Shown here piece by piece: positions 10,431-40,497 of a stretch of DNA of 41,530 nucleotides. The notes beneath the pieces are model-generated. The model had not been told where the DNA came from and made no database searches. It saw nothing but the letters and a program-made list of their open reading frames with translations. The stretch spans positions 1 to 41,530 of IMG/VR virus record IMGVR_UViG_3300021197_001010. One strand, 5' to 3'. Position 1 is the stretch's first letter, and each line of letters starts with the position of its first letter. The DNA is from a virus. The position numbers and the translations under genes are program-made.

Positions 10431-10433
10431 TGC

Positions 10434-16628: not shown

Positions 16629-16643
16629 TTAACTAACTACACT

Positions 16644-21531: not shown

Positions 21532-23397
21532 ATGGCTGTAGATAAGAGTGCTTTTATAAAGATAATCAAAGAGGAGTTTCCTGGAATAAGCGATGAGGGT
21601 ATAAAAGCTATTATGGGTAACGTATCTTTAGAAACCGCTAAGGGCACTCAGATGCGAGAGATTAACTACTCTATGGCTGGTAATAACGGTATATTCTCAA
21701 CCAAAGGCTCTGGAAGTTCAAAAAAATATAAACACCCTATAAAAACAGCTAGATACCACATGGTCAAAGCAGGTTACGCTAGTGGAGAGCTAGTGGGCCC
21801 AGACTCTAAAGGTAAATACGAGGTAAAAATTGGTACGTTCAAACAAACTGCAAAGCAAAAATCTGATTATAACGCTTTAGATTCTCATGAAAAAAATAGT
21901 TTATTTTACAATGGTAATATAACTGGAGTTGGTGGTGGGTTTGGTCCTCTTCAATTAACGGTTGGTACTGGCGCTGCTGTTGGTGGTTCTAGAAATAAGG
22001 ATATTGAAAAATACATGGAGGCTAATGGTATTGAAGGAACGCTTGAGGACTTTATGAAAAAGCTAGCTGATGATCCTGAATATGGGTTGAAACATACTTT
22101 AGCTTTCTACAAGTACACTGATCCCAATGATTGGAATTCTGAAAACTTAAGCAGTAGTGATACGACAAGTTTGTCAAGAATAATAAATCCTGGTAGACCG
22201 GTTAGTGATATAAAAGTACAGATACAAGAGGGAAACGCTTGGGCTTCAGATTCAATAGCAACATACAATGCTATTGACATAACAATAGAAGAAAATAAAA
22301 AATATGCACCGCAAACACCAAGTGGTCCTGGGGAGTTAACACAAGTAGAGAAAGATCAAATAGCAATTGATATACAACCAACACCCGCTCCACTTCCTGA
22401 AGACGTACCAAATGTTCTTAGTCAAATTGAAGTAGATAAAGAAAACGCTAGAAGAAAGCAGGAAGAAGAAAATAAAAAGAAAGAAGAGGTTTACCAACCA
22501 AAGGAATTAGTACCTTTATCAGACTTAACAGAGGAGGAGATAAACAACTTAACAGACGAAGAAAGAAAAGGGTATGGGTTACAACCCACCGTTGACATTG
22601 TTGGAGACAAGAAAACGGATGATGAGTTAACGCCTGAGCAAATTGCCCAAATAGAAAAGGAAAGATTGTTAGCTGAAAAAGAAAAGCAAGAAGAAGAAAA
22701 GTATTTTCAAGAGCAGTTACAAAAAGAAAAGGAAGAGGAAGAAAAAAAAAGAAAACAAAAAAAAGCCAAAGACAAGGTAATAGATAAAGATGGGGATGGT
22801 ATACCGGATACCATCGATGCGGATGCTGGTGAGCCAGTTCCAGAAAACCAACTCACAGTTTCTACCGAAGAAAAAGTTGTAATTGACGAACAGGAGAAAG
22901 AGGAGACTATAGAGACTGTAGAAACAGAAGAGATGGAGGTTCTTGATGCAAATGGTAATATAAAGAAAATAACTGTACCAACTGTAAGAATACCACCAAC
23001 TCCAACAACTGTAGACACAGAAAGCGTGGCGACTGAAGCGGCGACAACACTTGAGGATGTTATAGAGGAAAAACCAGAATTAGTTAAACCAAAGATTAAA
23101 GACTTTAAGACTTCAGGTGATTATATGAAAGCTAGAATGAAGTACTTTAAAAGTATTGAAGAGCAAGGTGGTGAAAATACAGTAGACTTTGACAATGAGT
23201 TAGACGACGATGAAATAAAAGAAACTGTTGATATGGAACAAAACTCAACGGTTATAGACGCTTCTAAAAGAAATATATTTAAAACCAACGGTAAAAGTAA
23301 TATATTTAACAGCATAATTGGAGACATCGACAATCTAGCTAAAGGTATACAGCAAGAATTAAATAATATAACTAAATCAATAAATAACAAGCAATAA
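21532..23397 (+). CDS. Virion-associated muralytic protein: GH19-like lysozyme domain plus coiled coil and calcium-binding loop
   Basis: The first ~245 of 621 residues resemble GH19/phage lysozyme-like hydrolases. E34 in GNVSLETAKGTQMREINYS is placed like the catalytic Glu in 'HE(S/T)GG...NLNYS' motifs. GGGFGPLQLTVGTG (about 142-155) matches the 'GRGPLQLTG' segment, and SRIINPG matches 'TRRINGG'. Predicted role: local peptidoglycan cleavage during DNA delivery. The middle (about 290-410) is a highly charged Glu/Lys coiled coil. Residues 418-429 (DKDGDGIPDTID) form a thrombospondin type-3/EF-like calcium loop. The remainder is acidic. The stop overlaps the giant-protein start (TAATG), so the two may be made in fixed ratio. 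The hydrolase class is from pattern matching by eye. Confidence 0.62.
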   Translation: MAVDKSAFIKIIKEEFPGISDEGIKAIMGNVSLETAKGTQMREINYSMAGNNGIFSTKGSGSSKKYKHPIKTARYHMVKAGYASGELVGPDSKGKYEVKIGTFKQTAKQKSDYNALDSHEKNSLFYNGNITGVGGGFGPLQLTVGTGAAVGGSRNKDIEKYMEANGIEGTLEDFMKKLADDPEYGLKHTLAFYKYTDPNDWNSENLSSSDTTSLSRIINPGRPVSDIKVQIQEGNAWASDSIATYNAIDITIEENKKYAPQTPSGPGELTQVEKDQIAIDIQPTPAPLPEDVPNVLSQIEVDKENARRKQEEENKKKEEVYQPKELVPLSDLTEEEINNLTDEERKGYGLQPTVDIVGDKKTDDELTPEQIAQIEKERLLAEKEKQEEEKYFQEQLQKEKEEEEKKRKQKKAKDKVIDKDGDGIPDTIDADAGEPVPENQLTVSTEEKVVIDEQEKEETIETVETEEMEVLDANGNIKKITVPTVRIPPTPTTVDTESVATEAATTLEDVIEEKPELVKPKIKDFKTSGDYMKARMKYFKSIEEQGGENTVDFDNELDDDEIKETVDMEQNSTVIDASKRNIFKTNGKSNIFNSIIGDIDNLAKGIQQELNNITKSINNKQ

Positions 23398-26300
23398 TGC
23401 CAGACAACATTACAGAAAACGAAGAGGTTACCACTACTCAAGGCGGCGAGCCGGTAATGATAAATTTTGACGATGACGTTGAGGTTGGTCAAGAAACTGG
23501 TGGTGATTTAAATTCAACCGCTCAAAGCCAATACGACGAGCAGGTTATTGATTTAGATATGTCTTCGCAGTCAGATATAGATCCTACTCTCGAAGAGAGT
23601 TATGAGGCAAAAGCTAAAGTAGAGGAGAAAGAGCTTGAAGAGTTATTAAGCGAGTACGATCAATTAAAAATTGACGAGGCTAATAAACCTGGAAATAAAT
23701 ACGCAGAATATAAATCTATATTTGAAGGGGTAAGCTCTGATATAAACAATAAGACACTTGAGCTTTTAGCCGTTAAACATCCAGATTTTTTAGATGTAAG
23801 TGATGATGGTATTGTTACTAATAATAATGGTGAGGTTGTAGAAACGAAAGAAGATTTTATAGAAGCCACGGGTTTTGGTGCTGGCGATGTTATTTACGAC
23901 AATGCTAGCGAGCAATTTAAGAACGAAGAGTATTATCATTTTAAAAGCACTATAGAACAAGCTAATGATGCTTGGGAATATCTTAAGAGTAGTTACAAAA
24001 CTGAAACTGGTAATTTAGTAAGTTCTCTTTTTTATCAAGGTGAATCTGAAACTTTAGATTTTGGTAAATTTGAAGAGGAAATGAAAATAGCTGTTTTCAA
24101 CTTGGTAGCGGGTGACAAGATGATGTCTCTTGCGGCTGAGGGTGGCGCAGATAAAGATTTTTCATTTGACTGGAAAAAGCTACCATTCCTTGGTGAGACG
24201 ATGAGTCTTCAAGAAAAAGAATTGCTAATAAAAGAAGCAAAAGGATTGGTGCTTCAAAATCAAATGAAAATTCAAACTTCTGCCGCAAACAATTTAAAAG
24301 TACTTGGTGATGATTTTGAGATTAAAAAGAAAAACTTAGAAAACAATTTTAACACTTTTACCGACCTTGCAGAGAGAAACCAACAGGCTATTAACGATCT
24401 TAATAAAAGACATGGAACTTGGGGCTACGACAAGCAGGGTAATATAAGGTTTATTAGCTATGGTAAAAGTTGGTCTGAAGAAGATAAAGCTAGTTTAATA
24501 GAAATAAATGCTAATGCAAAACAACTAAGCACTGATAAGGTAAAATTAGCTATAGAACGTGGTGAGGTTTTATCTTTACAAGAAACATATAACGATAGCG
24601 CTAAGGATTTAAACAATACAACTGAGGATTTATTTAACCGATTCTTATTTAATGGTGTTGATGACTTCGGCCCGGCTTTTAGGCAAACTCGTTTTGCAAA
24701 CGCGTATAATGATGCGCTACGCGCGTCAAACCCGTACATGGGACCTGTTTTAGATGTTGTATCTACTTTTGTTGATGGCTATGCTAGATATAAGGTGGCT
24801 TCAGGCGTGGTTAGAGGTCTCGCAAGCGCTCCAGCTTTGATTGCTGGTACTATCGCTGGGGCTTTGGATTATACCACTGATATTTCTCAGACAGGAAAAA
24901 AATACAACAGAAAGAAACCTAGTGCTTGGTCAGAGGGTGAAAGTGCTCCTTTTATGAGTGATATGTTTAATGGCTTACTAAGTATAGCAGACAAAGGTAT
25001 AACGCCAGTTTCTAGTGACGCAAGTGGTAAGTTAACTAAAGTTGGTTATAAATCAACATCAGAAAGTTGGTTAGGTCAATTTTGGGACGAAACACTTGGT
25101 GAGGGTAGTAATTGGAACTTATACTCTGGCACAAAAACAATTGGAGAGTTACTTCCTTATGTTATGGCTTTAAGACAAGGTATAGGTAATATAGATGTTA
25201 AGCATGTTGGTAGGCAAAGAAAACTTTTAGGTTATACTAAATCTATTGATAATAAATTTGGTAAAACCCTAATGAGCTCTTTGAGTAAGGGTTTTGTTGG
25301 TACTAAAAGGTTTACTGGAGCCGTAGAAATGATAAAGGTCAACCAAAGGATGACGCTACTAGATAACGTTGCTGATGGTAAGGCTAGGGGTATGGAGGAT
25401 TTTGAAGCGTTTGCCTATGGTAACTTTTTATCTTTTGCAACTGGTGTTAGCCAGTCAATCATGCCTGATTACATGTGGTTTAACTCTTCTGGTGGTAGAA
25501 AAATTAAAGACGCTTTAGTCAAAAAATTAACTGGAAAAGCTATAGATAAAATAGCTACTAGAAACGCTGTGAATGCTGCTTCAAGACAATTTGGTATAAA
25601 CTTTTTTAAAGAACAACTTGAGGAACAGGTTGACGTTGGTTTAGGTGACGTTGTTAAAACGATGTTTATAGCAGGTCATTCTCCAGACATCCTTAAAGTA
25701 GGTGTTCAAGCAGAACTAATAAGAGGTACAACATTGTTAGCTGGTGGTTTAGGTAGCGTACAAGCTGCTAGAACACACAAGACTGTTAGGTCAATGACTA
25801 ATAGAGCTTATTACAATCAAGGTTTTGATATAATAATTCAAGCTCAAAACCAAGTAAAAGCATTAGAGGGTAAAATTACTACACTTGGTGAGTCAGCTAA
25901 AGATACAAAGCTTAAAGAACTTCTTGAACAAGACGTAGCTGCTCTTCAGCAGAATATAGTTGACGGTAAAGATAGATTAAGAGCTATAAATGCCGCGCCA
26001 AAACAGGTTACAGACGCACAAATAGATTTGTTAATACAGAAAAACAAATTAATAGATGAGAGAGTTAAGCTTAATAAAAAAGATAAAGCTTTAGTTGCTG
26101 GTGACCTAGAACTTATCAACAATCAGATAGCAGAACTAGATGCCAAGATACAAGAAGCAACGCCTGTAAAGTACTCCGAAAGTGTTTACAAGGCTTTACT
26201 TAAAAACGCCAAGCAATTGGCCAAAGGAATGGGTGTAGACATAGAGCATTTTACTATCCCAGAAGGTGATTATGACAAGGCAATGGAGTTGGAGATTAAA

Positions 26301-29300
26301 AAAAGAACTGACGCCAATAAAAAGATTGACGATGAAATAGATCAGATTGATGGATCAACACCAGAGGGGAAAAAGAAAATAACTCAATTAGAAGCAAGAA
26401 AACTAATAATACCAACGTTTGAGGATCCCGCTTTAATAATGTATGATGACGTAAACGGAAAACATCGTATACTAATAAATGAAACAGCGGCTAAGGATAG
26501 TCATAATGAGGGCGTTGCTTTGCACGAACTCTTTCACGCTGTACTGCGTCAAACCGTTTTAAACTCTCCAGGCAAAGTAAAGGGCTTGTCATACATGATG
26601 AAGCAGGAACTTTTAAATAATCCTGATAAATATAGTTATATATTAGGTAAGTTTGATGAATATAGTTACACGAAGGGTATAGACACAATGTCTTTTGACG
26701 AATTGTTTACTGTGTTTTCAGAAGCTATAGTGCAAGGTGATGTAAGAATTGAATCTACTATAGGATCTAAAATTAGTGATTTTATAAGACGTTCTCTTAG
26801 AGAGGTTGGTATTAACTTTACGGTATCAGGACCTGATGGTATGATAAAGTTTATAAGAGACTACAATAGTGAAGTTATGAGTGGTAGAGAAAACTTCAGT
26901 CGTGGTATGCAGAAGATAATGGATAGCGGTTTAAAGATTAATGTTAGCAAAGAATATATACAGCAAGCTGAGCAATTAGAAAAAATCATGATTCTTGCTG
27001 GAAAGAATAGAGAGTTTGCTAGAGAAATGGGGCTTGAGCGTGAAGACGGTAGTTTACCAACTGTAACTGAAATATTTGGATCAGAAGGAGATTTATTAAA
27101 TACAAGAACCGATAAGGTTAGAGAAAAACAACAACCAAAAGAAAAACAAACAACCCCTGAGTCTAAGCGGGTTGATGCTTTAGAGAAAACCTTGAATAAA
27201 AGCCAAAAAAACGCTTTAGCTTTAATGCGTGAAAAAGGCATGTCAGAAGAGAAAATAAATAAATTTATCAAAAGCAAAGCAAAGGAAAATGGTAAGGGAA
27301 ATAAGTTATCAGAACAGTTTAAAGCAGAAGACATTATAGCTAATCCTGAGGGTCATAGCGAAGCGGTTGTAGTAAACGCTTATAGGCATTTAAAAGGAGT
27401 TGGTGGGGCTATTGATAGCGGTGGAGCTGAATCATCCACTAGTAAACTCTTGAAAGAGATTAAAAAGGATATAGCGGATGGAATAAGTATAAACTCTTCA
27501 TCTTACAAAACGGGTCAAAAAAAAGGTATAAGAGAGGCTTACGAAATGATGTTAGAATCTCAAAAACCAAAAACACAACTAACCTCAAGGTCTATAAAAA
27601 CCAAAGCAACGACTACTAGTGTTTACGATCAAAAGAAATTAGTAAGTGATTTAAAACTAAAAGATAGTACAGCTAAGATTGTTGAAGAAAACGCCAAGAT
27701 AAGAGAACTTATATTAGAAGAAGGTATAAGAGGTAAAAAGGGTAAAATAGTTGCGTCTGAAGATTTACAAGATAGACTTGTTCAAAACAACTTAGCTTTA
27801 GCCGTTTCATTAGGTACGTTCGCCGCTCAAAATCCAAATATACTAGGACTAGAAGCTGGTAAAAGAGTTAATGCTCAACAATTTATATCTGGTTATTACA
27901 TGGAGTTAAGCAAGTTAGCCGGAACTTACGATGCGTCGGTAAATGAATTTGGTCAGTACTTAAACACTATATTACCATTAAGATATGGTGATATATTAGC
28001 CGCTGAAAAAGCTGGTGCAGTTGAAGGTTCTGTAGGTTTAGATGCTGCTAAAGAAATAGAAAGCGATATAGATGAAAACCTAACTCCAGACGAAGTTATA
28101 GTTGGACCAGAAGTAGACACGGCTGAAAGATTTGGTATCAAAGAGGAAACAAAACCTTTTGTTGACAAGCTACTTAAAAAAGTAAGAAAGCTAGAAAGCT
28201 TAAGAGTAAAAATATCAAAGGAGTTTGACGAGAAAACAGCTAAGGAAATTGCCATATTAGAGTCTCAAGGCGTTAATGATCTTGAATTAAGCACTATAAC
28301 TGTTAAGCAAGCGCCTAACTTACTTTATGAATTTACCTCTAAGCTATTTGGTATTGATCAAGATAAGTTAAATCCTAAAAGCACAAAATGGTTAGCAAAC
28401 CTTAGAAAAAATGACAAAAGAGGCACTAACGAAGTAAGGGCAGCGCAGAGAGCTGTTGTTCAAAATGCACAACTTATACTATCTACAATATTTAACGAAG
28501 GCCATACTAAGGCACACAAGTCTTCTGGTATGCCTAATAGTTTGTTAAAGTTTGGTTATAACAAAAGCTCTAAAAGAATAGGTAATAGTTTTCCTCAATA
28601 TAAAAAACCTAACTTATCAGAAAAAGATTTATTAGAGTTTGTTGGTGTATATAGAGTTAAGGGTAAATATGAGTTTAAGGTTGATAGAAACACTGGGACT
28701 AAGTTGCTAGCGATAGCATCTATGGTCGATAGAAACATGAGTCTGCAAGCTATAAATGAAAACTTAAAAGAGAATGGAGACATAACAGCTCAAGTTAGAG
28801 TTGCCCTGGAAGATGGTATGTCTAAATCTAGTAAATCTATATTTTACAGACAAAACCCGGAGTATCAACCACTTATACAGGAGAAGTTACACTCAATAGC
28901 TGCGAAAATAGATGTGGCTGATGTTTCAGATATAGAGGCGATTAATAAAATTATAGCGGATGAGTTTGCGGACACGGAAATGGGTAGAAAGAAAGGTTTA
29001 CAGTTTGCTAAAACGCTAACTAAAAAAGGTGGTATTATTGCTAGGTATGCTGAAAGAGTAGATAGAGCAGGGCCAATGAAAAAAGACCTTGATGTTTTCT
29101 TAAGCGAACAGTTAGAGGAGGTGGCTTTACTTGAAGGGCTTTTAGACGTACTAGATATTAGTGTTGATAAAAACGCAGATCTTTATACGGTAAAGACAAT
29201 GCAAAACGCTAGGTCAAGAGTAGGTCAGTTTGTTACAGACGTGTTATTAGATGAGTATAACAATAGTAAAAAAGATAAAGCTGCTAAAAAAAGATTGTAT

Positions 29301-32300
29301 GAGCAAATCTTTATGTTGATGCAGCAGCATGTTACCGCTGCTAAGGCTGGCGACGGTAGTGTTTGGTTTACCGATGGTACTAACGAAGTTGAAGACGCTT
29401 ATTATCCTGAAGACAAAGTTTACACAAAAGACAAAGGAAAAAACAAAAAGGGGGACAAACACCCTTTAGCTGGTAAAAAAATAGAAAAAGGAGGTACTTT
29501 AAGATACCAGTTATTTGGTTCAAAACAAGGCGCTACTGTAGATTTTGCGAAATTTATGAATACGTTTTTAGAAGGAACTGGTATTAAAATAGGTTTAACA
29601 ACCGCTGAAAATAACAAGATTAAAAAAGATCTTGGTATAAAAGCTTTGGCACCACAAAAATCTAGCAGTGTTATAAAAAATTTGATTAAAGGAGTATTCG
29701 ACTTTAAAGCTAGGTATAATGAAGCTATGTTAGCTAGAGAGTTAACTAAAAAACAAGTTTTGTTTTATGCTGAAAACAAAATGATACCAAAGAACGAGCT
29801 AGCCGTTCACATGATGACGTTTGGTAGTAACATGGGTACGGTTTCAAGAAGAGCAGCTTATGTGTATGGTATACAAGAAGGCTTGTTGAGCAACGGCATA
29901 AGCGGTGATTATGTGTATAGCAAATTAAGTGAGATAGGTAAAAAGCTTGAGTTTGAACACGGTAAACCACATTTAGCCACTATAATGGATTTACTTAAAA
30001 TTGGTCTGAGTAAGAAAAGTGCTGAAAATAAAAACACTGCCATGGACGAGGTTTTTGTTGATTATGAGGTTAATATCATAACAAAGAAAATGGATGGAAC
30101 CTTGACGTCCTCTGGAGTTAAGAGCAGTATGTATCCAGGTTATGTTTTAGGAAAAGCACAGGGCTGGGCGCAAAGACTTTATAACGAGTTAAACTTTGGG
30201 CATCCAGACGTTGGCGCTATACTAAGCTTGTCTGGTGACGGAAAAACTATAGGTGGAGCACATAGTAGAATAACAAAATCTAAGATATTACCTAAATCCG
30301 CAAAGTCTATAAAGTTTGACCAAAAAATTAACAAAGGTATAAAGGCAGCTAGGTCAATTAAATATACTAATAATCCTAAGGGTATTACGGTTTTAGATTT
30401 TGATGATACGTTAGCCACGAGTAAGTCTTTAGTTATATCAACATCACCCGATGGTACGGTTAGAAAGCTAACAGCTGAAGAGTTTGCTCAGGAAGGTGCT
30501 GATTTACTAGATCAAGGTTGGACACATGATTTTTCAGAGTTTAGTAAGGTTGTGGATGGTAAAGTTGCTTCGTTATTTAAGAAAGCAATGAAATTGCAAG
30601 GTAAGTTTGGTCCTGAAAATATGTTTGTATTAACAGCGAGACCTGCTGATTCTGCTCCAGCTATATTTGAATTTTTAAAAGCTAATGGATTAAATATACC
30701 ATTAAAAAATATTACTGGTTTGGCTAACTCTACACCAGAAGCTAAAGCACTTTGGATGGCTGAAAAAGTTGGCGAAGGTTATAACGACTTTTACTTTGCA
30801 GATGACGCTTTACAAAACGTACAAGCTGTACAGAACATGTTAGATCAATTTGATGTTAAGTCTAAGATTCAACAAGCTAAAGCGTCTCGTAGTATTAAAT
30901 ATGATCAGCAGTTTAATGAGATATTAGAGGAAACTACAGGTGTAGAATCTGAAAAAAGATTTTCAAGAGCAAAAGCAAGAATGAGAGGCGAGGACAAGGG
31001 TAAGTATGCAATATTTATCCCACCATCTGCAGATGATTTTGTTGGTTTGCTATATTCGTTTTTAGGTAAAGGTAAAAAAGGTGAGGCAGATTTTAAGTTT
31101 TTTAAAGAGGCTTTGATAGAGCCTTTAAACAAAGCTTATATTGAATTAAACATGGCTAGACAGTCTATAGCCAATGATTACAAAAAACTTACTAAAGCTT
31201 TTCCAGAAATTAGAAAAATGTTGTATAATAAATTACCTGGAACAGAGTTTACTACTGGTGACGCAATGAGGGTTTATCTTTGGGATAAAGCTGGTTATAA
31301 CATACCTGGATTATCAGCATCTGACCAAGAAGCTTTAGTTCAAAAAATAAACGAAGACGCTGATTTAAAAGCGTTTGCAGATACGGTTGGTATTATATCT
31401 AGAGTAGAAGAAGGTTACGTTAGACCTAACGACGATTGGCAGGTTGAAGACATAAGAGTTGATTTAATGAACGCCATGCAAAACGTTCATAGGAAGGTAT
31501 TTTTTCAACAATTTTTAGAAAACGCAAGTATAATATTTTCTAAAGAAAATCTAAATAAAATAGAGGCTATATACGGTTCTAATTTTAGAGAAGCCTTGGA
31601 GGACATGTTATATAGAATCGAAAATGGAACTAATAGAAGTTTTGGTAGTAATAGATTGGTAAATAGATTTATGAACTTTATAAACGGTTCTATAGGTACA
31701 ACAATGTTCTTTAACTCTAGATCATCGGTGCTTCAAACTTTGTCTACTGTAAACTTTATAAATTGGAAAGAAAACAATCCTTTACAAGCGGCAAAGGCTT
31801 TCGCTAATCAAAAGCAGTTTTGGGCTGATTTCTCTATGATATTTAACTCTACTTTCTTAAAACAAAGAAGAGCTGGTTTAAACATAGATATTAACGCTAG
31901 TGAACTTACAGACTTTGTGTCAAACTCCAAGCAACCCGTTAGATCAGCTGTAAACTGGTTATTACAAAAAGGTTTTTTGCCTACACAAATGATGGATAGT
32001 TTTGCTATAGCTATGGGTGGGGCAACTTACTATAGAAACAATGTGAATAGGTTATTAAAAGAGGGCGTGACTTTAAAGGAAGCTGAAGAACGAGCTTTCT
32101 TAGATATGCAGGAGATAGCTGAGGAAACACAGCAATCAGCTAGACCAGATAAAATATCACAACAACAAGCTTCTGTTTTAGGTAGACTTATATTAGCTTT
32201 CCAAAACACACCAATGCAGTATACTAGGTTAATTAAAAAAGCTATGCTAGATTTACAGGCCGGTAGAGGTGATGCTAAAACACATGTATCAAGAATAGTT

Positions 32301-32921
32301 TATTATGGCGCTATACAGAATGCTATATTCTATAGTTTACAAACAGCGTTATTTGCCATGATGTTTGGAGATGATGATGACGAAGAGTTTATTAATAAGA
32401 AAACAGAAAGAGTTGTTAACGGTAGTATAGATAGTGTCCTTAGGGGTATGGGTGTTGGTGGAGCTGTAGTGTCGACAGTTAAAAACATGATCCGAGCTAT
32501 AGTTGAGCAACAAAATAAACCCAGGAATAGAAGAGATGAAAGCGCTGTTTTAATGGAGTTCTTAAATCTATCACCACCTATAGGTATTAAAGCAAGGCAA
32601 ATACAAAGCGCTGGTAAAACTTTAAACTGGAACGAAGATAAAATAAAAAACACGCCTCTATATAATTTAGAAAATCCAGTGTGGGAAGCTGGTTTTAATT
32701 ACACCCAAGCATTTACAAACGTACCTGTGGCTAGATTATATACTAAGGTTAACAATTTGAGAGAAGCAGCAAACAATGATAATCAAGCTTGGCAGAGAAT
32801 AGCTTTATTTTTAGGTTGGTCTAAATGGAACTTGGGTATCAAGGATAGTAAGTCAAAAAGCAAGAGAAAAACTAAGACGAGAAAAAGAGGAGCTTTTGGT
32901 GGTTTAAGAACCGCCGGATAG
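23397..32921 (+). CDS. Giant 3174-aa cargo/ejection protein with zinc-protease and HAD-phosphatase motifs
   Basis: This single gene covers about a quarter of the window. The N-terminal third is acidic then helical, with a hydrophobic stretch (about 471-494). A zincin motif HELFH has ligand candidates H1043 and H1047 and catalytic E1044; SFDELFTVFSEA (1099-1110) offers E1102 or E1109 as third ligand. A complete HAD set follows: LDFDDT with D2334/D2336, VLTARP with T2413, and FYFADD with D2469/D2470. This domain is bounded by RSIKY at 2319-2323 and 2498-2502. The C-terminal ~650 residues are helical (FFNSRSSVLQTLSTVNFINW) with a hydrophobic IVYYGAIQNAIFYSLQTALF and a very basic end. This fits a 'polyvalent' virion protein injected with DNA. 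I found no RNA-polymerase DxDGD motif. Enzymatic activities are inferred from motifs. Confidence 0.8.
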   Translation: MPDNITENEEVTTTQGGEPVMINFDDDVEVGQETGGDLNSTAQSQYDEQVIDLDMSSQSDIDPTLEESYEAKAKVEEKELEELLSEYDQLKIDEANKPGNKYAEYKSIFEGVSSDINNKTLELLAVKHPDFLDVSDDGIVTNNNGEVVETKEDFIEATGFGAGDVIYDNASEQFKNEEYYHFKSTIEQANDAWEYLKSSYKTETGNLVSSLFYQGESETLDFGKFEEEMKIAVFNLVAGDKMMSLAAEGGADKDFSFDWKKLPFLGETMSLQEKELLIKEAKGLVLQNQMKIQTSAANNLKVLGDDFEIKKKNLENNFNTFTDLAERNQQAINDLNKRHGTWGYDKQGNIRFISYGKSWSEEDKASLIEINANAKQLSTDKVKLAIERGEVLSLQETYNDSAKDLNNTTEDLFNRFLFNGVDDFGPAFRQTRFANAYNDALRASNPYMGPVLDVVSTFVDGYARYKVASGVVRGLASAPALIAGTIAGALDYTTDISQTGKKYNRKKPSAWSEGESAPFMSDMFNGLLSIADKGITPVSSDASGKLTKVGYKSTSESWLGQFWDETLGEGSNWNLYSGTKTIGELLPYVMALRQGIGNIDVKHVGRQRKLLGYTKSIDNKFGKTLMSSLSKGFVGTKRFTGAVEMIKVNQRMTLLDNVADGKARGMEDFEAFAYGNFLSFATGVSQSIMPDYMWFNSSGGRKIKDALVKKLTGKAIDKIATRNAVNAASRQFGINFFKEQLEEQVDVGLGDVVKTMFIAGHSPDILKVGVQAELIRGTTLLAGGLGSVQAARTHKTVRSMTNRAYYNQGFDIIIQAQNQVKALEGKITTLGESAKDTKLKELLEQDVAALQQNIVDGKDRLRAINAAPKQVTDAQIDLLIQKNKLIDERVKLNKKDKALVAGDLELINNQIAELDAKIQEATPVKYSESVYKALLKNAKQLAKGMGVDIEHFTIPEGDYDKAMELEIKKRTDANKKIDDEIDQIDGSTPEGKKKITQLEARKLIIPTFEDPALIMYDDVNGKHRILINETAAKDSHNEGVALHELFHAVLRQTVLNSPGKVKGLSYMMKQELLNNPDKYSYILGKFDEYSYTKGIDTMSFDELFTVFSEAIVQGDVRIESTIGSKISDFIRRSLREVGINFTVSGPDGMIKFIRDYNSEVMSGRENFSRGMQKIMDSGLKINVSKEYIQQAEQLEKIMILAGKNREFAREMGLEREDGSLPTVTEIFGSEGDLLNTRTDKVREKQQPKEKQTTPESKRVDALEKTLNKSQKNALALMREKGMSEEKINKFIKSKAKENGKGNKLSEQFKAEDIIANPEGHSEAVVVNAYRHLKGVGGAIDSGGAESSTSKLLKEIKKDIADGISINSSSYKTGQKKGIREAYEMMLESQKPKTQLTSRSIKTKATTTSVYDQKKLVSDLKLKDSTAKIVEENAKIRELILEEGIRGKKGKIVASEDLQDRLVQNNLALAVSLGTFAAQNPNILGLEAGKRVNAQQFISGYYMELSKLAGTYDASVNEFGQYLNTILPLRYGDILAAEKAGAVEGSVGLDAAKEIESDIDENLTPDEVIVGPEVDTAERFGIKEETKPFVDKLLKKVRKLESLRVKISKEFDEKTAKEIAILESQGVNDLELSTITVKQAPNLLYEFTSKLFGIDQDKLNPKSTKWLANLRKNDKRGTNEVRAAQRAVVQNAQLILSTIFNEGHTKAHKSSGMPNSLLKFGYNKSSKRIGNSFPQYKKPNLSEKDLLEFVGVYRVKGKYEFKVDRNTGTKLLAIASMVDRNMSLQAINENLKENGDITAQVRVALEDGMSKSSKSIFYRQNPEYQPLIQEKLHSIAAKIDVADVSDIEAINKIIADEFADTEMGRKKGLQFAKTLTKKGGIIARYAERVDRAGPMKKDLDVFLSEQLEEVALLEGLLDVLDISVDKNADLYTVKTMQNARSRVGQFVTDVLLDEYNNSKKDKAAKKRLYEQIFMLMQQHVTAAKAGDGSVWFTDGTNEVEDAYYPEDKVYTKDKGKNKKGDKHPLAGKKIEKGGTLRYQLFGSKQGATVDFAKFMNTFLEGTGIKIGLTTAENNKIKKDLGIKALAPQKSSSVIKNLIKGVFDFKARYNEAMLARELTKKQVLFYAENKMIPKNELAVHMMTFGSNMGTVSRRAAYVYGIQEGLLSNGISGDYVYSKLSEIGKKLEFEHGKPHLATIMDLLKIGLSKKSAENKNTAMDEVFVDYEVNIITKKMDGTLTSSGVKSSMYPGYVLGKAQGWAQRLYNELNFGHPDVGAILSLSGDGKTIGGAHSRITKSKILPKSAKSIKFDQKINKGIKAARSIKYTNNPKGITVLDFDDTLATSKSLVISTSPDGTVRKLTAEEFAQEGADLLDQGWTHDFSEFSKVVDGKVASLFKKAMKLQGKFGPENMFVLTARPADSAPAIFEFLKANGLNIPLKNITGLANSTPEAKALWMAEKVGEGYNDFYFADDALQNVQAVQNMLDQFDVKSKIQQAKASRSIKYDQQFNEILEETTGVESEKRFSRAKARMRGEDKGKYAIFIPPSADDFVGLLYSFLGKGKKGEADFKFFKEALIEPLNKAYIELNMARQSIANDYKKLTKAFPEIRKMLYNKLPGTEFTTGDAMRVYLWDKAGYNIPGLSASDQEALVQKINEDADLKAFADTVGIISRVEEGYVRPNDDWQVEDIRVDLMNAMQNVHRKVFFQQFLENASIIFSKENLNKIEAIYGSNFREALEDMLYRIENGTNRSFGSNRLVNRFMNFINGSIGTTMFFNSRSSVLQTLSTVNFINWKENNPLQAAKAFANQKQFWADFSMIFNSTFLKQRRAGLNIDINASELTDFVSNSKQPVRSAVNWLLQKGFLPTQMMDSFAIAMGGATYYRNNVNRLLKEGVTLKEAEERAFLDMQEIAEETQQSARPDKISQQQASVLGRLILAFQNTPMQYTRLIKKAMLDLQAGRGDAKTHVSRIVYYGAIQNAIFYSLQTALFAMMFGDDDDEEFINKKTERVVNGSIDSVLRGMGVGGAVVSTVKNMIRAIVEQQNKPRNRRDESAVLMEFLNLSPPIGIKARQIQSAGKTLNWNEDKIKNTPLYNLENPVWEAGFNYTQAFTNVPVARLYTKVNNLREAANNDNQAWQRIALFLGWSKWNLGIKDSKSKSKRKTKTRKRGAFGGLRTAG

Positions 32922-32955: not shown

Positions 32956-34035
32956 ATGGTAAGAAAACTAATAATACTGCTACTGCTTGTATCTAATATA
33001 ACAATAGCACAAACATTTGGTAAAGAAGAGATTAAAGGCTTATTGAAGTTCTCTACTTTTTATGCAGCTGTCAACGGTGGAACGTCACTTTCAGATGTTG
33101 ATGTATTCTCTGTGGATAATGGTTTATCTACGCAGACTATATCAACTCCTTATGATTATAATTTTACCATAGGATTACGTAAGATCGCAAGGTTTGGCTA
33201 TGAAAACAAAGCTCAAACATTTTATGACGGAACGGAATCTAATTACAGTGATGCGGCCACTGTCGGTAAGGTTAAAGGAGTTGAATACTTATTTGAGGTT
33301 AATTACAAAAGACAAGAAGGTGTTGACTACATGGATCAACATCACTTTATTAGATTTAGTTCTGATGATGGTTGCCCAGATGAATTATGTATAAACTTTT
33401 TTGCTTTAAAGCTAGAATATTTAGAAGATGGTTTTGCTGATATCAAGTACTTCGAAGCATCAGAGAGATATAGACATCGTAAAGGTAAAAACCTATCATG
33501 GAACGTTGGTCTTGTTCATAGACTTGCTGAGCCATACGGTTACAACGCTTTGGACGAGTGGATGTTAGATAATGGTGACTTACATTACACGTATTTAGCT
33601 TTACAAGAAGGCTATGAGGTGGATGTGTATAGCAACGAATACTATTCTCCTTCTGGAGAACTTGTAGCTACTAGTGCTGAGGTTTGGGAAGCGGTTGTAA
33701 TACCACAAGTGTTATCTGATTACACTGAAAGGAAAAGAAACGAATTAAAGAAAACTATACAACATTCATTTGTTGTTGGTTTTGATTATTATAAGTATTC
33801 TAAACAAACATGGCTACACGCTTGGGGAAGTTTAATGCCTTATCATTATGATGATGGCAGTGAGTTTAGTTATCACAATTATGTTGATGGACAATGGTAC
33901 GATTATTCAGGTGGATTAATATACGGGATAAAAGTAAACAAAAACTTAGGATACTTTATAGAAGGAAAATATAACAAGTACTGGAACAGAGAATGGTACG
34001 ACTTTAAATTAGGATTAAATTATACAATATTTTAA
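32956..34035 (+). CDS. Phage-encoded outer-membrane beta-barrel-like protein with signal peptide
   Basis: This 359-aa protein starts with a classic signal peptide (MVRKLIILLLLVSNITIAQ, probable cleavage after AQ). The mature part shows alternating aromatic/hydrophobic beta strands rich in Tyr, Trp, Asn and Gly (LSWNVGLVHRLAEPYGY, SFVVGFDYYKYSKQTW, GYFIEGKYNKYWNREW). It ends FKLGLNYTIF, a final strand with terminal Phe, the usual BAM-recognition signature of outer-membrane proteins. Two Cys residues (GCPDELC) could form a disulphide. It is the first gene of the envelope-directed cassette, 34 bp after the giant gene. Possible roles are receptor masking/superinfection exclusion, nutrient uptake or lysis support; the sequence does not decide. 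Sure about export, fairly sure about a barrel. Confidence 0.68.
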   Translation: MVRKLIILLLLVSNITIAQTFGKEEIKGLLKFSTFYAAVNGGTSLSDVDVFSVDNGLSTQTISTPYDYNFTIGLRKIARFGYENKAQTFYDGTESNYSDAATVGKVKGVEYLFEVNYKRQEGVDYMDQHHFIRFSSDDGCPDELCINFFALKLEYLEDGFADIKYFEASERYRHRKGKNLSWNVGLVHRLAEPYGYNALDEWMLDNGDLHYTYLALQEGYEVDVYSNEYYSPSGELVATSAEVWEAVVIPQVLSDYTERKRNELKKTIQHSFVVGFDYYKYSKQTWLHAWGSLMPYHYDDGSEFSYHNYVDGQWYDYSGGLIYGIKVNKNLGYFIEGKYNKYWNREWYDFKLGLNYTIF

Positions 34036-34045
34036 AAAAACAATT

Positions 34046-34489
34046 ATGGCATTTAAAATGAAAGGATCACCAATGCAAAGAAACTTTGGCGTATCACCAG
34101 TAAAACAAAAAGACCCGTTTGAAAAACTTTATAAAAAAGTTAACCCAAAAGATCCAAAAGCAATTAAAGGTAAACACTATCCAAGTAGCGAAACTACAAA
34201 AAAACTACAAAAAGGACCGTATGCAAAGGGTGGTCAAAACGCAAACGTAGCTGAATCAAAAAAATATAAATACCCAAAAAACTTTAACTCAACTGGAAGT
34301 AGTAAAGCTGGTAAGTTTGCTAAAGTAGCTAAAAAAGTTATTGGAAAAGCAGCAAAATTTGCTGGTGGTAAAGCTTTAGGTGTAGCTGGTATGTTAACAG
34401 CTACAAGTTCAAAGGCTGATCAACCTAAAAAAGGAAAAGGAAAAAGAGAATATCCAGGTGGAAAAATAGATTTTACTAAACAAAAATAA
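34046..34489 (+). CDS. Small basic protein, function unknown
   Basis: This 147-aa protein is rich in Lys, Gly, Pro and Ser and begins AFKMKGSPMQRNFGVSPVKQ. That opening seems familiar from small proteins in marine flavobacterial phage genomes. Residues ~95-130 form an Ala/Gly/Lys helix with a hydrophobic face (KFAKVAKKVIGKAAKFAGGK). It could bind nucleic acid or be membrane-active through this amphipathic helix; neither is shown. The stop overlaps the next start as TAATG. Confidence 0.6.
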   Translation: MAFKMKGSPMQRNFGVSPVKQKDPFEKLYKKVNPKDPKAIKGKHYPSSETTKKLQKGPYAKGGQNANVAESKKYKYPKNFNSTGSSKAGKFAKVAKKVIGKAAKFAGGKALGVAGMLTATSSKADQPKKGKGKREYPGGKIDFTKQK

Positions 34490-34770
34490 TGGCAAAAGAG
34501 CTAAACGAAGATACTGGTTTTCAAGTTAGTATTAAAACATTAGTAGGTATTGGAGCAGCTATGGCTACTGTTATTAGTATGTGGTTCATGTTGCAGGCTG
34601 ATATTGCGGAGGCAAGAGAATTACCAGAGCCATTACCACCAGATGTTACTCGTATGGAGTTTGACATGAAAGATCAAATGATTAGACAAACAATAATAAC
34701 AACGCAGGAGGACGTAGAGGAGATGAAGAAGACCCTCGAGAGGATTGAAGATAAACTTTATAAAAGATAA
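34489..34770 (+). CDS. Single-pass membrane protein, possible holin or spanin-like lysis accessory
   Basis: This 93-aa protein has one transmembrane segment at about residues 17-37 (SIKTLVGIGAAMATVISMWF), then a Pro-rich hinge (LPEPLPPDV) and a C-terminal helix with heptad character (EEMKKTLERIEDKL). A short N-terminus, one membrane helix and a charged coiled coil fit small phage membrane proteins near lysis genes, so a holin or inner-membrane anchor role is possible. The endolysin candidate lies 5 kb downstream, so the link is weak. Both ends are TAATG overlaps with neighbours. Confidence 0.65.
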   Translation: MAKELNEDTGFQVSIKTLVGIGAAMATVISMWFMLQADIAEARELPEPLPPDVTRMEFDMKDQMIRQTIITTQEDVEEMKKTLERIEDKLYKR

Positions 34771-35132
34771 TGGAAAAACCTAGTGTTACCTGGAAAATAT
34801 TTAGTATATATCTGTTAGTGTTGTTTTTTATATTTGTATCAGGTAAAGCATCTGGTCAAATTTCTATAGCTCAATTTAACGCTGGCTGGAACGAGGCTAA
34901 TACTGTTGGTTGGGTTCAAAACCTTAACGATTGTAAAACTATATCCTATGTTGACATTACTACTAGTCCTGATATTCAGAAGAAACATAAAATAGCGGTT
35001 ATACCGACTATTATAATATTTAAAGATGGAGAAGAAGTTGCTAGGTTTCAAGCTGATCTTAGTTTTAAAATGCTAGCAACTAAAGAAGAAGTACAAGAAG
35101 AAATAGATAACATATTAATGAGTGACTTTTAA
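34770..35132 (+). CDS. Exported thioredoxin-fold protein lacking the CxxC active site
   Basis: This 120-aa protein has a signal peptide or membrane anchor (IFSIYLLVLFFIFVSGKASG). The remaining ~90 residues follow the thioredoxin order: FNAGWNEAN, a strand SYVDITTSPDIQKKHKI, the cis-proline motif VIPTIIIFKDGEEVARF, and a C-terminal helix. The CxxC normally found after the first strand is absent; only one Cys (NDCKT) is present, so redox activity of the usual kind is unlikely. It may act as a periplasmic binding or chaperone module. The start is coupled to the membrane protein upstream (TAATG). The fold call is good; the function is unknown. Confidence 0.72.
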   Translation: MEKPSVTWKIFSIYLLVLFFIFVSGKASGQISIAQFNAGWNEANTVGWVQNLNDCKTISYVDITTSPDIQKKHKIAVIPTIIIFKDGEEVARFQADLSFKMLATKEEVQEEIDNILMSDF

Positions 35133-35796: not shown

Positions 35797-38292
35797 ATGA
35801 AAAAACTACTACTATTATTATTACCATTTATAGCTTTAGCACAAGGTCCACCTAACTGTGTACCTACGACTATTATTATAAACCTTGATCAGTATCAAGG
35901 CGAAACATATTGGACTATAGAAGATACTAGCGGTAATATGCTAACCTATGGTACTAACTATGGTTCACAACCTGATTACGCTTCTGTTGTAGAGCAAAGA
36001 TGTTTACCACCAGGCCCATTAACTTTTACGATATATGATGCGTACGGAGATGGGTTAAATGGATCAATGTGGGGTGGTTTAGATGGATCTTATTATGTGG
36101 TACAATGTTATGACACTTTAGTTTCTGGTACAGACCCAGCTTTTGGTAACGACACAGCTCACGCTATTTTAGTAGCTCCATGCCCACCGATATTCGGTTG
36201 TATGGATTCTTCTTATGTAGAATTTAACCCTAGAGCAGACACAAGCGACGGCTCGTGTTCTACGTTAGTAGTATTTGGCTGTATTGATTCTACTATGTAC
36301 AACTATGATTCTACTGCTAACACGATGTCTTTAGTTCCATCTTGTGATTATACTTTAACGCTAACAGATTTAGTTGGAGATGGTTGGGCAGCATCAAATT
36401 TAGAGGTAACTCAAGGGGATAGCGTTTGGAATTTTACATTAGATACAGCTGCTTACTCTCAAGAATATACTATAAACTTAAAAGCACCTCAAGAGGTTTC
36501 ATTTAAGTTCTCGATAACACAACAAGCTTTTCAATCTGCAGCTCACTGTGGATTTAAGCTGACAAACCCATTAGGTATGACTATGATAGAGGTTATACCA
36601 CCGTTTATACAACCTTTACTTAAACGTACTGTACCAACTTATTGTGGTGATTACTGTATTGATAGAATATTTGGCTGTATGGATTCTTTAGCATTAAACT
36701 ATGTGGATACAGCAAATACTGCTTTACCATGTTTTTACGTTCTTGGTTGTACTAACTCTTCTTACTTAGAATATTATACACAAGGTTTTACGGCTGACAC
36801 TAGCGATGGATCTTGTCAGACACAAGCTGTTTGGGGTTGTACTTCTTCAAGCGCTTTTAACTACGATCCACAAGCCAACATAGATAATGGTGGTTGCATA
36901 GCCGTTGTAGTTGGTTGTATGCAGCCTTTAGCGTTTAACTACAACCCTCAAGCGAACACACCAGATACTTGTATTGCTGTTATTTATGGGTGTATGAGCT
37001 CTATAGCTTTTAATTACGACTCATTAGCTAACACAGACGACGGTAGTTGTATAAGCGTGATACAAGGTTGTACTGATAGCACTATGTTCAATTACTCACC
37101 AAGCGCTAACGTAGAGGATAGTTCTTGTGTTTCTTATATATACGGCTGTATGGATCCAACTATGTTTAACTATAGTGCTTTAGCTAATACTGATAACGGT
37201 GCGTGTATAACTTTTGTTTATGGTTGTGTAGATTCCACGATGTGGAATTACGATCCATTAGCTAACACTGATAACAACAATTGTATACCTTATATTTACG
37301 GTTGTACAAATCCTATTGCATTAAATTATGATGTATTAGCTAATACAAATAATTTCAGCTGTATACTACCAATTTATGGCTGTATGGATCCTACGGCGTT
37401 CAACTACAACCCACTGGCTAATGTTGATAACAACGCTTGTATACCTGTTGTTTTAGGTTGTACTGATCCAAGCGCTTTAAATTATAACGCTAACGCTAAT
37501 ACAGATGACTTTAGCTGTATATCACCTATATATGGTTGTATGGATTCAACTGCGTTTAATTACAATAGTTTAGCAAATGTAGATAATGGAGCTTGTATTC
37601 CTGTAATCTTAGGATGTACAGACCCAACGGCTCTTAACTATTGTGATAGCTGTAATACTGATGATTTTAGCTGTATACTACCAATTTATGGTTGTACTGA
37701 CAGTACTATGTTTAATTATAATTCCTTAGCAAATATTGATAATAGCTCTTGCGTTCCTTACATATATGGTTGTACGAACCCTTCTATGCTCAATTACAAT
37801 CCATCGGCAAACACGGAGGATTTTAGTTGTATTGCTTATATTTATGGGTGTATGGATAGTACCGCTCTTAACTTTGATTCACTTGCTAACACGCCTAACA
37901 ACTCGTGCATTAAAATCGTTATGGGTTGCATGGATCCAAACGCGTATAACTATGAATCAACTGCTAACGTTAACGATTCTATATCTTGTTTGTATGACGC
38001 TAATTGTTTTACTGGTCCAGGAAATCCTTATTGGCTAAACAATGAGTGTTACGCTTGGGTTATTTCAGTGGACGATTACTGTTGCGAAAACGAGTGGGAT
38101 ACAATATGTCAGTCAACTTATGATTACTGTGAAGGTAATTGGGTTGGACCGGTGTTAACAAGAATACAACAAACAAAAGAACTAATGATGATTACTGACT
38201 TATTAGGTAGGCCAGCAAAACAAAGTAAAAACAAACTTCTATTTTACCTTTATAATGACGGTACTGTAGAGAAAAAATTAATCAAACAATAA
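35797..38292 (+). CDS. Secreted Cys-rich 19-repeat protein with T9SS-type C-terminal sorting domain
   Basis: This 831-aa protein has a signal peptide (MKKLLLLLLPFIALAQ). Next comes a beta domain with YDAYGDGLNG, common in Bacteroidota secreted proteins. From residue 134, 19 repeats of the form GC.D..A.NYN..AN.D..SC occur, contiguous from 293 to 731, mostly 24-28 residues each with two Cys. A Cys-rich module (YCCENEWDTIC, about 760-775) precedes the tail. The last ~45 residues (MITDLLGRPAKQSKNKLLFY, then LYNDGTVEKKLIKQ) resemble the Bacteroidota 'Por secretion' C-terminal sorting domain. Predicted path: Sec export, then T9SS release or surface attachment. Role unknown: surface coat, receptor mask or matrix binding. 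Repeat count and Cys pattern are seen; T9SS use is inferred. Confidence 0.8.
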   Translation: MKKLLLLLLPFIALAQGPPNCVPTTIIINLDQYQGETYWTIEDTSGNMLTYGTNYGSQPDYASVVEQRCLPPGPLTFTIYDAYGDGLNGSMWGGLDGSYYVVQCYDTLVSGTDPAFGNDTAHAILVAPCPPIFGCMDSSYVEFNPRADTSDGSCSTLVVFGCIDSTMYNYDSTANTMSLVPSCDYTLTLTDLVGDGWAASNLEVTQGDSVWNFTLDTAAYSQEYTINLKAPQEVSFKFSITQQAFQSAAHCGFKLTNPLGMTMIEVIPPFIQPLLKRTVPTYCGDYCIDRIFGCMDSLALNYVDTANTALPCFYVLGCTNSSYLEYYTQGFTADTSDGSCQTQAVWGCTSSSAFNYDPQANIDNGGCIAVVVGCMQPLAFNYNPQANTPDTCIAVIYGCMSSIAFNYDSLANTDDGSCISVIQGCTDSTMFNYSPSANVEDSSCVSYIYGCMDPTMFNYSALANTDNGACITFVYGCVDSTMWNYDPLANTDNNNCIPYIYGCTNPIALNYDVLANTNNFSCILPIYGCMDPTAFNYNPLANVDNNACIPVVLGCTDPSALNYNANANTDDFSCISPIYGCMDSTAFNYNSLANVDNGACIPVILGCTDPTALNYCDSCNTDDFSCILPIYGCTDSTMFNYNSLANIDNSSCVPYIYGCTNPSMLNYNPSANTEDFSCIAYIYGCMDSTALNFDSLANTPNNSCIKIVMGCMDPNAYNYESTANVNDSISCLYDANCFTGPGNPYWLNNECYAWVISVDDYCCENEWDTICQSTYDYCEGNWVGPVLTRIQQTKELMMITDLLGRPAKQSKNKLLFYLYNDGTVEKKLIKQ
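36196..37989 (+). repeat. Array of 19 coding repeats (Cys-flanked NYN motif)
   Basis: Translated units begin with GC(M/T/V/I) and end at a Cys about 20-24 residues later, with a central (F/L)NY(N/D) and AN.D/E.(F/G/N/S)(S/A)C. Units 1 and 2 lie near residues 134-185, and units 3-19 run without interruption from 293 to 731. DNA identity between units is moderate, so this is an old array rather than a recent slippage product. Units alternate between YGCMD-type and LGCTD-type, suggesting two-unit duplications. Confidence 0.85.
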
Positions 38293-38309: not shown

Positions 38310-38750
38310 ATGGCAACAACAACAGCAACAATTACGCTTTCTAGTGCAGATTTACTGAGTGACAACTTGTCGTTGTCAGCTACTATGAATTTGTATAAAG
38401 GCGGCACAACAGCAACTGGATTAGATCAAATGAATTACCATAGATTAGTTGTACCAACAGGTACAAACTTTGATCTTATTGAAGAAAGCGCTGCTTTAAC
38501 AGAAGATGCAAACTACGTTTATATCATAAACAAAAACACGGATGTAACTGATTACGTGAAAATATCTATCAATGCAGAAGAAATAGGTAGATTATATGCA
38601 GGTGACTGGTTATTTATGCCTTGGGATTGTGATTTATCAGCAGCGTCAAATGACTCTAGTATAGAAATACAAGCTTACACTCACGAAGCAATTATTGAGT
38701 ATGCTTTATTCCACAATGGAGAAACTTTAGTAACAGCAACTGATTCGTAG
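38310..38750 (+). CDS. Small putative virion protein, paralogue of the next gene
   Basis: This 146-aa beta-rich protein contains KISINAEEIGRLYAGDWLFM and then PWDCD. That matches LLAAVEIGRLYGGDWMFIPW in the following gene, and the two start with the same eight residues (MATTTATI). No signal peptide or membrane segment is present. A minor head-decoration or tail-appendage role is likely from context and the beta pattern. The function is otherwise unknown. Confidence 0.68.
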   Translation: MATTTATITLSSADLLSDNLSLSATMNLYKGGTTATGLDQMNYHRLVVPTGTNFDLIEESAALTEDANYVYIINKNTDVTDYVKISINAEEIGRLYAGDWLFMPWDCDLSAASNDSSIEIQAYTHEAIIEYALFHNGETLVTATDS

Positions 38751-38784
38751 AAAATTAATTAACAATACAAATAAATAAATAAAT

Positions 38785-39537: not shown

Positions 39538-40037
39538 TGACTTATACAGGAAAAGTAAATCAAATAAGACACAAAGCACTTAGGTTAACACCAACTATAA
39601 CAGGTGTTCAGTATGCTAATAACGATATTTTGTTTGACACAACTGAAATGGCTAACGCAGTTGAATCTCCTGGTGGAGCTTCTAAGCTTGTCAACGTATC
39701 TTTGTGGACAAAGTCTAATGATGTTTTTGATATAGAGTTATTGTTTTTTCAGGTAAACCAATCCATGGGTACTGTAAATGCTGGTAGAAATGTATCTGAC
39801 GCAGACTGGGCAACGGCTAAATATTTAGGACACTTAGTTTTAGATGGGTCTGAAGAGGACTACAATTACGGTGGTGGTAGAATATTTACTTTTGCAGAAA
39901 GACCAGCTCTACCAATGGTGTTGCAAGCTGAAGCTGGTTCTACTAGTGTATATTGTGCTGCTTTTTTAAGCGGAACAGATGTTACTCCATCTTTTTCAGT
40001 TGGAGATATTGAATTAATTTTTGGACTTGAATTATAA
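39537..40037 (+). CDS. Putative minor structural protein
   Basis: This 166-aa protein reads as a beta-sandwich (KLVNVSLWTKSNDVFDIELL and FFQVNQSMG), with SDADWATAKYLGHLVLDGSE in the middle and SFSVGDIELIFGLEL at the end. Neighbours and composition suggest a virion surface protein. The start is coupled to the upstream stop (TAATG), and the endolysin candidate starts 4 bp downstream. Confidence 0.62.
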   Translation: MTYTGKVNQIRHKALRLTPTITGVQYANNDILFDTTEMANAVESPGGASKLVNVSLWTKSNDVFDIELLFFQVNQSMGTVNAGRNVSDADWATAKYLGHLVLDGSEEDYNYGGGRIFTFAERPALPMVLQAEAGSTSVYCAAFLSGTDVTPSFSVGDIELIFGLEL

Positions 40038-40041
40038 TAAC

Positions 40042-40497
40042 ATGATAAGTAAACACATAAGCGATAAGGAAGGAGTGTATAGCATAACAGCGACACGTAA
40101 AGGTTTAGACAACACGCCAAACCAATTTGAGTTAGCTAACATGAAGGAAATAGCTGAGCAAGTATTTGAACCATTAAGAGAATGGGTTGGTGGACCTATT
40201 AGGATTAATAGTTTTTATAGGGGTAAAGCTTTAAATAAAGCTATTGGTGGATCAACATCGTCTCAACACTGTAAGGGTCAAGCTATGGATATAGATGATG
40301 GTGGGTGTAAAAAGACTAATGCTGAGATGTACGCTTGGATTAAAGAGAATTTAAACTTTGATCAAATGATCTGGGAGTTTGGTGATGATAAAAATCCAAA
40401 CTGGGTACATGTTAGTTATGTCAATGAAATTGACAATAGAAATCGATGTTTAAAAGCCTATAAAGAAGGTGGTAAAACAAAATACAAAGTAATATAA
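40042..40497 (+). CDS. M15-type zinc peptidase, probable endolysin
   Basis: This 151-aa protein is predicted to cleave peptide bonds in peptidoglycan at lysis. It carries the M15/VanY-like zinc motif SSQHCKGQAMDIDD (His and Asp ligands) and a later WVHVSY supplying the third ligand. RINSFYRGKALNKAIGG before the motif matches the 'SGYRS..LN..VGG' segment of peptidase M15A-type endolysins. No signal peptide is present, so a holin or another route is needed. I chose the ATG at 40042 over an in-frame one at 40021: the later start lies just after the upstream stop and follows the A/T-rich leader TTATAATAAC, while the earlier one would overlap coding sequence. Confidence 0.85.
   Translation: MISKHISDKEGVYSITATRKGLDNTPNQFELANMKEIAEQVFEPLREWVGGPIRINSFYRGKALNKAIGGSTSSQHCKGQAMDIDDGGCKKTNAEMYAWIKENLNFDQMIWEFGDDKNPNWVHVSYVNEIDNRNRCLKAYKEGGKTKYKVI

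Follow-up and report, generated by a model that had tools for sequence, protein, structure and literature searches.

A predicted phage outer-membrane beta-barrel and its conserved gene module in marine Bacteroidota viruses

The locus and its virus

The window (the whole stretch of DNA that was analysed) is a 41.5-kb virus record. Its terminase and portal proteins are related to those of Cellulophaga (Pervagoviridae), Flavobacterium (Elemovirus), Tenacibaculum and Maribacter phages, and the closest relative is the uncultured podovirus MW202828 (TerL 64%, portal 53%). The assignment to a Bacteroidota host rests on these TerL and portal relatives together with a type IX secretion system (T9SS) signal on a linked gene product. 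The following features are considered:

23397..32921, + strand: 3174-aa gene directly upstream of OMP
32956..34035, + strand: OMP, predicted phage-encoded outer-membrane beta-barrel protein, 359 aa (sequence, homologues, predicted fold, dN/dS)
32956..33009, + strand: signal peptide of OMP, residues 1-18 (sequence, by inspection; homologues)
33055..34029, + strand: predicted 12-stranded barrel of OMP, residues 34-358 (AlphaFold2 model)
34489..34770, + strand: TMcc, 93 aa, one N-terminal transmembrane (TM) segment and a predicted periplasmic helical tail (conserved in loci)
34770..35132, + strand: Trx, exported thioredoxin-fold protein, 120 aa (Pfam Thioredoxin, 7e-6)
35797..38292, + strand: T9SS-type cargo, 831 aa, with signal peptide, repeats, Cys-rich cap and C-terminal sorting tail
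38164..38292, + strand: short C-terminal tail of the cargo, ITDLLGRPAKQSKNKLLFYLYNDGTVEKKLIKQ, where homologues have a type A T9SS sorting domain
40021..40497, + strand: endolysin (Peptidase_M15_3; PHROG 894)

The 3174-aa gene is matched by position alone to gp101 of Cellulophaga phage phi40:1, as whose counterpart it is regarded. In phi40:1, gp101 is the last structural gene, its product has been detected by MS, and the annotated virion block ends there. The OMP gene starts 34 bp past the stop of the 3174-aa gene, as the original prediction had it in placing OMP directly after the virion genes. By tblastn, the OMP gene was not found in the related phage records named above, including phi40:1.

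Near the end of the window, a minus-strand reading frame (41190-41468) is by eye close to the C-terminus of a 617-aa gene in contig L082 (12778-14631, minus strand), which we take to be a ribonucleotide reductase. This suggests that the contig, which is probably incomplete, has been cut and that the genome is longer than 41.5 kb. Contigs L082-L085 and L257 are phage contigs that were binned into cellular MAGs, under the labels Sphingobacteriales, Nitrosopelagicus and Maricaulis. Of these labels, the archaeal and the alphaproteobacterial one clash with the Bacteroidota-type genes and are probably due to mis-binning.

The OMP gene and its family

The OMP reading frame is complete, from an ATG start to a TAA stop. 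OMP is under strong purifying selection, and is a real gene in a real family: comparison with 15 close homologues gives a mean dN of 0.06, a dS of 1.0 and a mean dN/dS of 0.06. By segment, dN/dS is relaxed in the leader (0.29) and lies between 0.02 and 0.06 elsewhere, predicted loops included. An arms-race reading with hypervariable loops is not supported, as the predicted extracellular loops are conserved.

Searches of IMG/VR with four OMP queries returned overlapping sets of relatives, namely 450 for the window protein, 546 for L083 (approximately 50% identical to it), 123 for L082 and 276 for L257 (34% identical). Phage-borne barrels had been expected to be rare, but this family is widespread in marine phage contigs, with hundreds of IMG/VR relatives. 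No sequence match to OMP was found in Pfam, PHROG, NCBIfam or the PDB. Among 396 Bacteroidota genomes there was a single match, which lies on a phage contig inside a MAG and is flanked by the same phage genes; a cellular origin of OMP was rejected on this ground, and as far as tested the family appears to be phage-restricted. Annotated phage genomes yielded no match to OMP (three queries), TMcc (two) or Trx, so that there is no cultured phage to anchor the module. OMP is a new family of predicted phage outer-membrane barrels, within a new gene module.

Leader and predicted fold

The original prediction had recognised a signal peptide, alternating strands and a terminal phenylalanine in OMP, and these observations hold. 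The N-terminus, MVRKLIILLLLVSNITIAQ|TFGK, is by inspection a classic Sec-type signal peptide, and this type of leader is conserved in homologues, with an invariant Q at position 19 in 40 of them. Of 234 homologues, 63 have a lipobox (lipoprotein) leader instead of the plain signal peptide, and half of the window-like clade belongs to this type; the window protein itself is without a lipobox. Homologues with a lipid anchor would still be located in the outer membrane. The C-terminus reads ...WYDFKLGLNYTIF, also given as ...GYFIEGKYNKYWNREWYDFKLGLNYTIF, and closes with F359, the kind of aromatic end found in outer-membrane barrels; a C-terminal F occurs in 177 of the 234 full-length homologues.

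AlphaFold2, supplied with 128 diverse homologues, predicts 12 antiparallel strands (mean pLDDT 76.8, pTM 0.71), superseding a weak earlier model from 40 close homologues (pLDDT 63). The predicted strands span residues 34-52, 56-76, 108-120, 123-135, 148-158, 163-176, 180-191, 267-281, 285-297, 316-326, 331-342 and 345-356. A 75-residue insertion containing a helix separates strands 7 and 8 (residues 192-266), and two loops are modelled with low confidence. The inward/outward alternation of hydrophobicity in the 12 strands exceeds that of shuffled sequences (72 of 5000 shuffles reach it), although a whole-protein sliding-window scan, in which the predicted strands are not used, exceeds shuffles by only about 1 SD. 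In the PDB, the leading matches by fold are all of the outer-membrane barrel kind (NanC, Tsx, FapF, a COG4313 channel and autotransporter barrels), many of the matches being 12-stranded; a beta-sandwich, which had been named as the alternative, is not among the leading ones. Superposition on known barrels is loose, with an rmsd of approximately 9 A or more for the best PDB matches and a best TM of 0.56 by target length, so the exact fold should be read as approximate. With an even number of antiparallel amphipathic strands and a fold like that of known barrels, the model supports OMP as an outer-membrane beta-barrel, as originally predicted. The closest viral model is A0A516LKJ4 (BFVD), which resembles OMP over the full-length predicted fold (Foldseek E 5e-23, TM 0.70/0.74) at only 21% identity.

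These features bear on two other readings of OMP. Its position directly after the virion gene block would suit a virion protein, such as a tail or adsorption component, rather than a protein of the host membrane. This is very improbable in view of the signal peptide, the lipoprotein leader in about a quarter of homologues, the predicted outer-membrane fold, and the absence of any homologue found in phi40:1, whose annotated virion block ends at the counterpart of the upstream gene. Alternatively, OMP could serve the infected cell as a general porin or uptake channel, in an auxiliary metabolic role, or it could be a porin that alters receptor display in the manner of Lc/NmpC. The 12-stranded predicted barrel and its similarity in fold to the uptake channels NanC and Tsx speak for such a function, but the similarity is generic (approximately 8% identity), the family has no cellular homologue in the 396 Bacteroidota genomes apart from the phage contig, and a porin leaves the strict linkage to TMcc and Trx (below) unexplained. 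A porin role is therefore rather improbable. Membership in the general porins (Lc/NmpC/OmpC), which are 16-stranded trimers, was rejected, as OMP has no Pfam, NCBIfam, PHROG or PDB sequence match and 12 predicted strands.

Lc of the lambdoid phage PA-2 is a phage-borne outer-membrane protein. It, the OMP of Aeromonas phage phiAS5 and the OMP-like domains of cyanophages are phage-encoded outer-membrane barrels, as the window protein is predicted to be; in contrast to them, the window OMP is locked in a multi-gene envelope module, and it has no detectable sequence relation to any of them. The comparison with Lc/NmpC-type receptor-altering porins that the original prediction drew thus holds as an analogy only. 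The PorP/SprF family (PF11751) offers a different likeness, as these proteins are also Bacteroidota outer-membrane barrels linked to T9SS cargo. Membership of OMP in this family was rejected (no Pfam match; hhalign probability 5%, versus 100% for a control in which PorP was compared half versus half).

TMcc, Trx and gene linkage

The strongest clue to function is the conserved gene neighbourhood of OMP, which the original prediction had overlooked. TMcc is found in 221 of 246 OMP loci and Trx in 218, and the two are neighbours in 205 of 217 pairs. TMcc is a predicted coiled-coil inner-membrane protein, whose tail is helical and heptad-like by inspection and contributes only about 57 periplasmic residues. 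With its N-terminal TM segment and periplasmic helical domain, TMcc has the features of an i-spanin, given a topology inferred from the distribution of charges. Apart from the leader of Trx, it is the sole clear small protein with one TM segment in the late region of the window.

Trx carries a leader, and NAGWNEAN replaces its CxxC site. A catalytic thioredoxin was rejected for the core Trx family, since none of the 98 distant members has a CxxC, and among the 218 near ones only 20 have any. This exported, CxxC-less protein is conserved in approximately 300 loci, adjoining TMcc. A Trx protein of the distant clade (below), used as sole query, returned only its own contig.

In the clade of the window, 102 loci have at least 5.5 kb of flank on each side, and every one of the 102 contains OMP, TMcc, Trx and a T9SS-type cargo gene. 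Gene order varies among them, with the cargo downstream in 66 and upstream in 36. In 53 loci the stop of the cargo gene and the start of OMP share 1 or 4 bp. The loci are related, so that these counts are not independent trials; the linkage is nevertheless informative, because the orders are rearranged and OMP diverges down to 51% identity. In L027 there are two OMP paralogues (10001-11098 and 15735-16808), the second of which lies directly after the cargo gene and overlaps its end. No report of marine viruses that combine OMP, TMcc, Trx and cargo came up in a literature query. That a group of abundant marine Bacteroidota viruses keeps these genes side by side suggests a set of viral tools with which the host envelope is remodelled or opened.

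The cargo and type IX secretion

The window cargo contains approximately 16 Cys-rich repeats of the form GC(M/T)D..A.NYDP.AN..C, followed by a conserved Cys-rich cap. A T9SS sorting domain closes most copies of this large linked repeat protein. Of the members with a YPNP-type (type A) tail, 48 were tested and all match the sorting domain PF18962; two divergent members also match TIGR04183. These sorting signals on most cargo homologues are, like the predicted barrel fold, the conservation and the gene linkage, direct outcomes of the computation. PF18962 does not match the short tail of the window cargo or 33 tails like it. Approximately one third of the phage cargo has this short tail (ITDLLGRP..KN.LLFYIY.DGTVE+K), which no Pfam model matches; besides the window, it was noted in L356 (373-1626). 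It is preceded by the same Cys-rich domain as the type A tail (hhalign probability 100) and aligns in register, if weakly, with the last part of that tail (E 0.001, probability 22%). A secreted protein of a Bacteroidota genome, GH16-like by inspection, has the same short tail at its end. On account of the shared upstream domain, the register, and the tail's presence on a secreted cellular protein, the window cargo is likely to be exported via the host T9SS.

The GC(M/T)D..A.NYDP.AN repeats also occur in large proteins without a signal peptide, encoded upstream of the barrel (window 10434-16628; L180 1358-5329; L183 925-5316; L236 1393-6072; others). These are possible virion proteins, so that one module may be common to the secreted cargo and a large protein of structural type. 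The closest annotated phage matches to the cargo are short stretches of repeat in Synechococcus phage S-CAM3 and Marine virus AG-345-P14. Following the cargo, the window encodes two similar small proteins (38310-39210; MATTTATITLSS.., with ends ..EYALFH/EYTCFYE), which are often duplicated beside the cargo in relatives.

One precedent for phage-encoded T9SS cargo was found in Cryophage, where superinfection exclusion was proposed (PMC7468147). The Cryophage cargo has type A sorting domains, as does cargo of the window clade, but it consists of enzymes or PA14-domain proteins, whereas the window-clade cargo consists of Cys-rich repeats and is linked to a phage barrel.

Main rival: possible surface remodelling or superinfection exclusion

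The main rival of the interpretation favoured below, a role in surface remodelling or superinfection exclusion, comes close behind it. OMP may help to display the T9SS-exported Cys-rich repeat protein on the infected cell, or to anchor it there; this would keep other phages or released progeny from the receptors, or make the cells sticky. The presence of the cargo at every full-flank OMP locus, in either order and often with overlapping start and stop codons, argues for this role, as do the type A sorting domain in each tested member of that class, the recurrence of the cargo repeats in certain large proteins of related phages that are not exported, and the Cryophage proposal (PMC7468147). On the other hand, the distant clade retains TMcc and Trx with no cargo found, the predicted extracellular loops of OMP are conserved rather than hypervariable, and OMP is not homologous to the T9SS partner barrels PorP/SprF. 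In addition, the position of OMP suggests that it belongs to the late genes. Exclusion genes are usually early.

Distant clade and lysis genes

The L257 OMP, although only 34% identical to the window protein, aligns with it at an hhalign E of 1e-49 and leads to 81 further loci. In this distant clade, Trx lies near OMP in 79 of the 81 loci and TMcc in 78. An M15 endolysin is encoded approximately 1.8 kb downstream of OMP in 69, and a holin-family protein near OMP in 42 (both named by PHROG). T9SS cargo was found in none of the 81. As the trio is kept where no cargo was found, the core unit is barrel, TMcc and Trx, and the cargo is an addition of the window clade.

The window endolysin lies approximately 6 kb from OMP and is not adjacent to it, and no recognisable spanin or lipoprotein was found in the late region of the window. 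For Bacteroidetes phages, only unimolecular spanins have been reported (PMC12596118), and for the Pervagoviridae isolate Calle an amidase endolysin is listed and no spanin (North Sea flavophages, PMC8776804). The module is reminiscent of the two-component spanins Rz/Rz1 in its pairing of an inner-membrane coiled coil with an outer-membrane protein near an endolysin (in the distant clade), and in the lipobox on some OMPs. It differs in that OMP is a predicted barrel of 340-400 aa, usually without a lipobox, rather than a small lipoprotein; the window OMP was rejected as an o-spanin, having no lipobox and the wrong size.

A proposed trans-envelope module

The reading that we favour, tentatively and at somewhat less than an even chance, is that OMP is the outer-membrane part of a trans-envelope module that acts late, most likely by breaching or linking the outer membrane at lysis. 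TMcc would reside in the inner membrane, the CxxC-less Trx in the periplasm and the OMP barrel in the outer membrane, and the window clade would add a repeat protein that reaches the cell surface by the host T9SS. OMP would probably be expressed together with the late genes, be secreted by the Sec route and enter the outer membrane by way of BAM. Late in infection, the module and the endolysin could then substitute for a spanin by opening or linking the outer membrane. Contact between the parts, their timing and their role in lysis are alike things that we infer.

A lysis role is preferred because there is one core part for each layer of the envelope, because the distant clade places the trio beside a lysis cassette, and because of the missing recognisable spanin in the late region of the window and the spanin reports cited above. 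The predicted 12-strand barrel, the linkage of OMP, TMcc, Trx and cargo and the endolysin and holin neighbours in the distant clade are consistent with it; so are the purifying selection on all segments of OMP, unlike a fast-evolving receptor or antigen, and the apparent restriction of the family to phages (the one match in 396 Bacteroidota genomes being a phage contig). Several points weigh against lysis. The window endolysin is distant from OMP, the periplasmic part of TMcc is short for bridging the periplasm, and a T9SS-secreted surface protein has no obvious fit to lysis. Furthermore, the loci are related rather than independent, the superposition is loose and two loops are of low confidence, and a unimolecular spanin of the kind known from Bacteroidetes phages (PMC12596118) could lie in the unsequenced part of the genome. 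A bolder statement, that Bacteroidota phages possess an undescribed trans-envelope machine which breaches the outer membrane without a classical spanin, and to which one clade has added a T9SS-exported surface protein, is possible but on balance doubtful.

Significance

Little is known of the way in which Bacteroidota phages breach the outer membrane or remodel it, and the spanins reported for them are only unimolecular. A trio of predicted barrel, inner-membrane and periplasmic proteins, present in hundreds of marine phage contigs, provides a concrete and testable candidate. If the linked T9SS cargo is what it appears to be, an abundant group of phages would routinely coat infected cells by way of the host's own secretion system.
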